Part shown: piece after piece, positions 2,437-2,838 of the stretch | Numbering within the stretch: the first letter of the stretch is position 1 | Layout: each line of letters starts with the position of its first letter | NCBI RefSeq assembly: GCF_003367315.1 | Contig: NZ_CP031415.1 | Location: 432,001-496,000 of the forward strand | DNA: 64,000 nucleotides | Origin: Saccharospirillum mangrovi | GTDB taxonomy: Bacteria > Pseudomonadota > Gammaproteobacteria > Pseudomonadales > Natronospirillaceae | Reading direction: 5' to 3' | Translations under genes and position numbers: made by a program | The notes under the pieces: generated by a model | The model's database searches: none | The model's input: the letters and a program-made list of their open reading frames with translations, nothing else | What the model was told of the DNA's origin: nothing

Positions 2437-2546
2437 GCGCGCCATCTGCAAAGGCGCCGTCAGGTGGCTGTGCGGAAGAAGTTCATCCTCTACTGAACAA
2501 ACCAGAGGATGAAGCTCGAGCAAGACCCGGTTTGTTCAAACGTTAT

Positions 2547-2622
2547 CCGCCCGTAGCTTTTATGCCCGAAGGGTGCAGCTGGATAGAGCGCTGCCCTCCG
2601 GAGGCAGAGGTCTGAGGTTCGA
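2547..2622 (+). pseudogene. Broken duplicate of tRNA-Arg(CCG)
   Basis: It has the same acceptor 5' strand (CCGCCCG), anticodon arm (CTGCC CTCCGGA GGCAG) and T-stem 5' strand as the functional gene at 2762. A 17-base insertion after TAGCT (2559-2575) disrupts the D arm. The sequence diverges right after GGTTCGA, so the 3' T-stem strand, acceptor 3' strand and CCA are missing. It cannot fold as a tRNA. It is a remnant of duplication or recombination at the tRNA locus. Confidence 0.85.
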
Positions 2623-2694
2623 CAAAACGCGACAGCGTTTTGGGCCGCGTCAGCGCCGCGCAGCGGGCGTTTCCATGCGAACAGCATGGAAACG
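2623..2694. repeat. Palindrome-rich spacer between the two tRNA copies
   Basis: Two clean inverted repeats lie in this short spacer. One at 2623-2642 has 8-bp arms (CAAAACGC/GCGTTTTG) around GACA. One at 2668-2694 has 11-bp arms (CGTTTCCATGC/GCATGGAAACG) around GAACA. A GC-rich segment separates them. They may be small palindromic elements inserted in the damaged tRNA copy, or RNA hairpins on the tRNA precursor. Confidence 0.6.
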
Positions 2695-2761
2695 AGCCCA
2701 TCCTCTTGCGAACAAACCAGAGGATGAAGCTCGAGCAAGACCCGGTTTGTTCAAACGTTAT

Positions 2762-2838
2762 CCGCCCGTAGCTCAGCTGGATAGAGCGCTGCCCTCCGGA
2801 GGCAGAGGTCTGAGGTTCGAATCCTCTCGGGCGGGCCA
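2762..2838 (+). tRNA. tRNA-Arg (anticodon CCG)
   Basis: A complete 77-nt cloverleaf. The acceptor CCGCCCG (2762-2768) pairs with CGGGCGG (2828-2834), followed by discriminator G and an encoded CCA. The D arm begins TAGCTCAGCTGG. The anticodon stem CTGCC/GGCAG encloses the loop CTCCGGA with anticodon CCG. The T loop contains GGTTCGAATCC. It reads CGG codons. A strong terminator follows after three bases. Confidence 0.97.

Follow-up and report, generated by a model that had tools for sequence, protein, structure and literature searches.

Organization of the tRNA-Arg(CCG) locus

The window is a 64,000-nucleotide stretch of the Saccharospirillum mangrovi genome (G000), which is a single contig of 3.69 Mb. 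The single tRNA that ARAGORN and Rfam report at the locus is tRNA-Arg(CCG) (2762-2838), and it is preceded by a broken copy of itself that neither program recognises as a tRNA. The two copies form a direct repeat in two blocks, the first of 75 nt with 96% identity at a 215-bp offset (2484-2558 and 2699-2773) and the second of 47 nt with 100% identity at an offset of 198 (2576-2622 and 2774-2820); the change in offset from 215 to 198 therefore marks a 17-nt insert at 2559-2575. A preliminary description of this DNA had recorded a 215-bp-offset duplication of the leader and most of the tRNA, with a 17-base insertion in the D arm, and both features are confirmed. The T loop of the broken copy is divided by a 77-nt insert with four hairpins (2623-2699; GGTTCGA^ATCC), 3' of which seven nucleotides of T stem return (ATCCTCT, 2700-2706) before the next leader starts; the remainder of the tRNA 3' end after ATCCTCT is absent. 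The upstream copy had been described as losing its 3' part at GGTTCGA. Its far 3' end is indeed missing, but the T stem resumes 3' of the insert and the supposed loss at GGTTCGA is therefore an insertion. The two palindromes reported earlier, with 8- and 11-bp arms, are present, one at either end of the T-loop insert. Features of the locus are listed in Table 1. Downstream, the stretch at 2887-2915 may be compared with a unit in the related genome G002, and a sequence shortly after the tRNA (2917-2955; CCGTCATCCCGGAACCGCGCAGCGGTATCCGGGATC) resembles a CGTC-type REP (dRS3-like, by eye).

Table 1. Features of the duplicated tRNA-Arg(CCG) locus, in window coordinates.
Feature	Position	Strand	Basis
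Promoter-like site TGGACT-16-TATACT	2409-2436	+	Sole one found in 2380-2960
Leader copy 1, with potential H-type pseudoknot (CATCCTCT/AGAGGATG interleaved with GAACAAACC/GGTTTGTTC)	2484-2546	+	Repeat comparison, stem search
Broken tRNA-Arg copy, 5' end (CCGCCCGTAGCT)	2547-2558	+	Repeat comparison
D-arm hairpin insert, 17 nt (TTTATGCCCGAAGGGTG)	2559-2575	+	Repeat comparison; recurs in 5' fragments of other tRNAs
Broken copy: remaining D arm, anticodon arm and 5' side of T arm up to GGTTCGA	2576-2622	+	100% identical to 2774-2820
RtT-like palindromic T-loop insert, 77 nt	2623-2699	+	R2 model 50.6 bits, fold
T stem resumption ATCCTCT; with C2699 doubles as start of leader copy 2	2700-2706	+	Sequence reading
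Leader copy 2, same potential pseudoknot, directly 5' of intact tRNA	2699-2761	+	Repeat comparison
Intact tRNA-Arg(CCG)	2762-2838	+	ARAGORN, Rfam
Palindrome with perfect 20-bp arms, probable terminator	2836-2876	+	Repeat scan; absent from the terminator scan's list
Possible remnant of downstream unit, without hairpins (CCGGACGAGA / CGAGCCCATCTTCTCG)	2887-2915	+	By eye; 89% to 2689-2706

Leader and transcription

Both leaders in the window are predicted to allow an H-type pseudoknot, and both of its stems also occur in two leaders of G002, where pairs are changed, and in one leader of G003. These five leaders from three genomes are too few for proof; in plain minimum-energy folds, some leaders retain one stem only or shift a stem. 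The promoter-like site lies before the broken copy (shuffled sequences have a mean of 0.2 such sites), as the preliminary description had suggested in proposing that both copies sit on one transcript. G004 and G001, which do not have the copy, carry the same promoter hexamers and spacing 38-40 bp 5' of the tRNA. Read-through of the broken copy is therefore probable: the intact tRNA is probably transcribed through it, judging from promoter placement, and the broken copy may be processed along with the tRNA.

The locus in related genomes

G002, G003 and G005 were assigned to Saccharospirillum, the genus of the window, by genome search. Among ten tRNA-Arg(CCG) loci compared, the tRNA is preceded by a copy bearing the D-arm insert in four (G000, G002, G003 and G014); G000 and G003 carry the T-loop insert inside that copy and the G002 copy is without it. 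G003 has a window-like build 5' of its intact tRNA. In G008 a 5' fragment of the tRNA lies upstream without the D-arm insert, and in the other five loci (G001, G004, G010, G011 and G012) the tRNA start (12 nt, up to 2 mismatches) is absent within 500 bp. The arrangement, being missing from five of ten loci, is not fixed in all relatives; such fixation was one doubt raised in the preliminary description, and the other, an assembly artefact, is rejected because two other Saccharospirillum assemblies (G002 and G003) carry a broken copy with the D-arm insert and a diverged sequence. The same build is found with another tRNA in G064 (L090), where a tRNA-Arg(CCT) with a T-loop insert lies directly 5' of an intact one and ARAGORN calls both. 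On the 3' side of tRNA-Arg(CCG) in G003 (L031, 4900-6457), a HipA-like ORF and a small HTH-like ORF (by eye) lie between two tRNA-derived units.

Fold of the T-loop insert

The T-loop insert opens with an 8-bp hairpin, and the junction that follows holds two short hairpins and one of 11 bp. In eight aligned inserts from six genomes of the family, the junction is closed by 3 bp, the long hairpin comes last and 10 of 25 pairs have compensatory changes. A larger set of 65 distinct rows (69 matches from 43 loci searched) has two-sided changes in all 25 pairs, 96.7% of its cells pair, and its covariation is 0.653 compared with 0.163 for shuffled and at most 0.079 for slid alignments, figures that lean towards the fold model because the alignment was fitted to it. 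Bases 3' of hairpin 1 vary, and they pair and covary with the 3' end of the insert.

The end loops of the window insert are GACA and GAACA, without GGA. Two models were used to search for relatives: R1, which represents the insert with its T-arm flanks, and R2, built from 38 inserts to represent the insert alone. GGA occurs in 67 and 68 of 70 class-level copies for the two end loops, in both loops of 65 of these copies and in both loops of all 40 dispersed Saccharospirillaceae copies, frequencies that have to be read with the training of R2 partly on GGA loops in mind. Among 65 order-level rows, GGA is present in 41 and 39 per loop, in both loops of 36 and in neither loop of 21, and the two hairpins are concordant (Fisher 1.5e-9, kinship not corrected). 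GGA loops are a feature of CsrA/RsmA sites. All 24 genomes tested contain CsrA, whether or not their copies carry GGA loops, so that its presence does not discriminate for a CsrA link.

Distribution and insertion sites in Gammaproteobacteria

R1 matches occur in 15 of 22 genomes of the family and 63 of 244 of the order, and R2 matches in 113 of 276 gammaproteobacterial genomes; these counts are not adjusted for kinship, and the large searches scored 18 candidates per genome. Relatives of the insert occupy the same T-loop point in incomplete copies of tRNAs (Arg, Ser, Phe, Met, Lys and Tyr) and of tmRNA, so that the T loop, named earlier as the breakpoint, is a recurrent insertion point beside many tRNAs. 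ARAGORN finds a tRNA in 33 of 54 loci from the R1 searches (L043-L096, some of which overlap). Many inserts divide the T arm in a copy of a neighbouring tRNA's 3' end, in some cases decayed, and others follow tmRNA (by eye); R1 matches below ~35 bits include dispersed repeats distant from tRNAs. In 42 units with an intact tRNA or tmRNA at most 170 bp upstream, the insert starts 67-103 bp after that gene in 39, and an inverted tRNA 3' end between tRNA and insert is significant in 13 (p<0.01, 200 shuffles).

Seventy class-level R2 copies were read, comprising 30 supplied loci and 40 picked by hand from the list; hand picking, of these 40 and of 40 Saccharospirillaceae loci, omitted some tandem neighbours and contig-end hits. 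A T-loop setting is assigned to 21 of the 70 copies by rule, with one ad hoc ending for L126, and to 25 by eye, a share that is inflated because R2 was trained on T-loop copies. GA lies directly 5' of the element in 62 of the 70 and in 42 of the 49 copies outside the T-loop rule, and A is the last base of the element in 46 of these 49, where element ends were moved by up to one base by a rule that favours a start after GA and an end in A. Reading frames stay open through several copies on either strand, so that only two, with Pfam support for the flanking protein, are counted as in frame: one inside prmA (L131; 330-aa ORF, PF06325 274.6 bits) and one inside a Mutator-type transposase gene (L129; 529-aa ORF, PF00872 175.7 bits). 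A 102-aa ORF open through the element at L232 appears IS91-like by eye, but has no Pfam match and is not counted. At L107 the element interrupts a resolvase-type gene (the fragment matches PF00239 with 21.1 bits, below the cut-off of 23.3), within which it lies antisense (by eye). L107 and L233, from two different genomes, have the element at the same resolvase-type gene site (by eye).

Elements also occur within other repeats. At L122 and L241 (G383) what appears to be the first hairpin of another copy holds the element in its loop, with 9-bp flank pairing, and at L236 it lies at the end of a CGTC-type REP (CGTCATTCCGGCGAAAGCCGGA^ATCC, by eye), as a repeat within a repeat. The nested L122 and L241 copies and the setting of 40 Saccharospirillaceae copies suggested general insertion into hairpin loops; this idea was dropped because, for copies outside T loops, flanks pair in 7 of 49 compared with 6.05 expected from mismatched flanks. 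The 40 Saccharospirillaceae copies with flanks (from G001, G003, G004, G005 and G010) are mostly cores of larger, mostly intergenic repeats (by eye), and 39 of them have GGAC at the left edge. In L187-L226 the core is enclosed by larger repeats with long closing stems (by eye), many of them in G005 and G001. Copy number is high in some Saccharospirillaceae other than the window's organism, with R2 matches at E<=1e-4 numbering 74 in G005, 34 in G001 and 25 in G003.

In the window genome R2 lists three places at E<=1 and R1 four at E<=0.001, and all four distinct places among the matches listed follow a tRNA or a tmRNA-like end: Arg(CCG), Ser(GGA) and two decayed places after tRNA-Ser(TGA) and a tmRNA-like end (the last two by eye). 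The decayed units after tRNA-Ser(TGA) and the tmRNA-like 3' end are L292 and L293, and the latter retains a GGA loop.

The D-arm insert

The D-arm motif GCTTTTATGCCC-N3/4-GGGTGCAGC has nine exact matches in 84,980 species genomes (from which the window's own record is perhaps excluded), and each of the nine is located within a 5' tRNA fragment (Ala, Val or Arg) a short way 5' of the intact gene. Hosts are three Saccharospirillum, Gynuella, Porticoccaceae, Cellvibrionales, Thiotrichaceae and two unplaced gammaproteobacterial MAGs. A second D-arm insert is present in G000 before tRNA-Val(TAC). With up to two mismatches, the insert is found in 2 of 369 class genomes, one of them the window's (five matches, all in tRNA leaders), and in 13 of 390 order genomes (18 matches), where five matches are in tRNA leaders (G000, G002 and G014), two sit within the loops of a different hairpin repeat (by eye) and 11 have no such setting; a reversed-pattern control gave one match in the order set and none in the class rows. 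At 2 of 369 class and 13 of 390 order genomes, the insert is too rare to be considered a class-wide family. In G461 (L267 and L269) the intact tRNA-Ala(GGC) is preceded by two of its 5' fragments in tandem, each with the D-arm insert.

Relationship to RtT and other repeats

RtT (RF00391; the rttR repeats of Escherichia coli tyrT-tyrV) is reportedly a by-product of the tyrT operon, in a description of 1991. Like the window copy, RtT has a T arm divided at GGTTCGA^..^ATCC (window 2616-2706), and its insert, like those of the window family, is ~70 nt with several hairpins: in the E. coli K-12 tyrT-tyrV-rttR sequence, AAGGTTCGA is followed by the ~70-nt insert and then by ATAATCCTTCCCCCACCACCA. 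E. coli rtT forms tandem units in which an inverted tRNA end precedes the insert. The window copy differs in lying 5' of the intact tRNA and in retaining the whole 5' part of the tRNA with the anticodon arm. It further differs from RtT in its extra D-arm insert and in the absence of an inverted part and of most of the 3' end; it contains no inverted tRNA 3' end and no full 3' end with CCA, and stops after ATCCTCT. The window locus has no match to RF00391 at the gathering score, at E<=5 or at E<=10. In a comparison of RF00391 with 20 T-loop sources at E<=0.05, two match, L135 with 44.7 bits and L115 with 36.9 bits (gathering score 45), and both align to RtT over its full length, positions 1-130. 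R1 does not match E. coli rtT, and R2 matches it with 8.1 bits (E 0.05). The link from the window to RtT runs via intermediates because RF00391 misses the window insert, R1 misses E. coli and the R2 match is weak; for these reasons the window element is named RtT-like, not RtT.

The Aggregatibacter sRNA AaHKsRNA22 (RF02902) spans the T-loop insert and its flanks in L119, matching twice with 33 bits (E 0.016), and its match to window 2612-2708 is at chance level (16.4 bits, E 1.4); all of its matches are under the gathering score of 39.8. Rickettsia palindromic elements insert in frame into ORFs. The T-loop family resembles them in its in-frame ORF insertions (L131 and L129), but their host class is another and the likeness is one of insertion habit. 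PMC3733652 names these elements as well. Like the GTAG-type REP/BIME with RAYT and the CGTC-type REPs treated in PMC3733652, the T-loop family consists of short dispersed palindromes with high copy number in some genomes and some copies in genes; unlike them, it has no fixed terminal tetranucleotide and the bases after hairpin 1 vary. RtT is reported upstream of tRNA genes in Actinobacillus (PMC4986893), E. coli RtT is treated as a released RNA (PMC2965389, PMC4986893), RtT-like elements are linked to BIMEs (PMC2965389) and rttR is listed as REP-containing (PMC12306157). No description of the T-loop family was found in the open-licence literature, and absence is claimed no more widely.

Mobilisation by RAYT was considered and rejected. 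Of 46 Y1_Tnp matches from nine genomes, 20 loci were checked and have no R2 match, and Y1_Tnp was not found in the window genome.

Origin of the broken copy

The most probable explanation (probability roughly 0.6) is that, after tandem duplication of the tRNA, an RtT-like mobile palindromic element colonised the redundant copy. The leader and tRNA-Arg(CCG) would have been duplicated as a unit, and the direct repeats indicate that tandem duplication, offered earlier in the form of a failed duplication, was involved. The upstream copy would be dispensable because an intact copy follows, and it carries two palindromic inserts, the 17-nt one in the D arm and the 77-nt one in the T loop. The latter is a candidate member of a mobile palindromic family akin to E. 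coli RtT in build and insertion point, the presumed mobility of which follows from its dispersed and in-frame copies. The family appears to insert just 3' of GA with no clear target duplication, perhaps moving as single-stranded DNA, and would persist in T loops of redundant tRNA pieces because a hit in the sole working copy would be lethal.

The conserved fold of the insert could instead reflect a selected RNA. The broken copy and its leader would then be a putative functional RNA, which either is processed like RtT, bears a pseudoknot leader and modulates tRNA-Arg processing or, in many relatives, titrates CsrA/RsmA with its GGA loops. Strong pair conservation in the insert, retention of both pseudoknot stems in five leaders of three genomes and GGA in both end loops of most class-level copies (65 of 70) and all 40 from Saccharospirillaceae, with concordance at order level, are in keeping with this, as is the description of E. 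coli RtT as a released RNA in PMC2965389 and PMC4986893. However, the window loops are without GGA, as are both loops of 21 order-level rows out of 65, and CsrA occurs in all 24 genomes tested regardless of GGA. G001 and G004 of the same genus have no broken copy before the tRNA, and some in-gene copies are antisense (L107, by eye); we consider selection for an RNA unlikely here.

The scar of an integrated element, which the preliminary description put forward, would imply that a displaced piece of the tRNA was left behind by integrase crossover within the T loop. The T-loop position, the copies of tRNA 3' ends that many genomes have downstream of tRNAs and, in G003, ~2.5 kb with a HipA-like ORF (by eye) between two tRNA-derived units speak for it. 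Yet Pfam searches of 15 ORFs, from ~8.8 kb upstream to 11.5 kb downstream of the tRNA, found no integrase or other mobility gene (one ORF has no family), and the nearest PF00589 match is ~196 kb away among the three matches listed for the window genome, where others may be missed. The apparent break is itself a small structured repeat, conserved at ~70-80 nt and present away from tRNAs too, and not a displaced 3' end, which makes an integrase origin very improbable. The last alternative needs no mobile element: after a simple tandem duplication, the spare copy would have decayed through hairpin-templated (template-switch) errors. It draws on the zigzag units 3' of tRNAs, in which an inverted and then a direct 3' end occur (13 of 42 at p<0.01). 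Fragments of Ala, Val and Arg tRNAs from different families that share the D-arm insert, and related T-loop inserts at dispersed sites, make it equally hard to sustain; template switching is a possible origin of the duplication itself, not of the inserts.

Colonisation of the spare copy by an RtT-like element may also be part of a broader and quite doubtful scheme. A class-wide T-loop palindromic element, of which RtT would be one member, and a rarer D-arm one would both reside in redundant tRNA pieces on the transcripts of working tRNAs and act as putative structured RNAs, with GGA hairpins that bind CsrA/RsmA in many lineages and a pseudoknotted leader in Saccharospirillum, and would couple tRNA output to global regulation.

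Implications

A broken tRNA beside a tRNA gene should not always be read as the scar of an integrase. The results suggest that RtT-like palindromes make up a family spread over the class, with a T-loop site that recurs and a GA rule, and that the core of RtT is a palindromic element in a tRNA T loop, with the same build beside many tRNAs and tmRNA. If this is true, it would provide a likely origin for RtT, a large set of sequences for comparison and an insertion rule that can be tested, namely 3' of GA with the T loop preferred.
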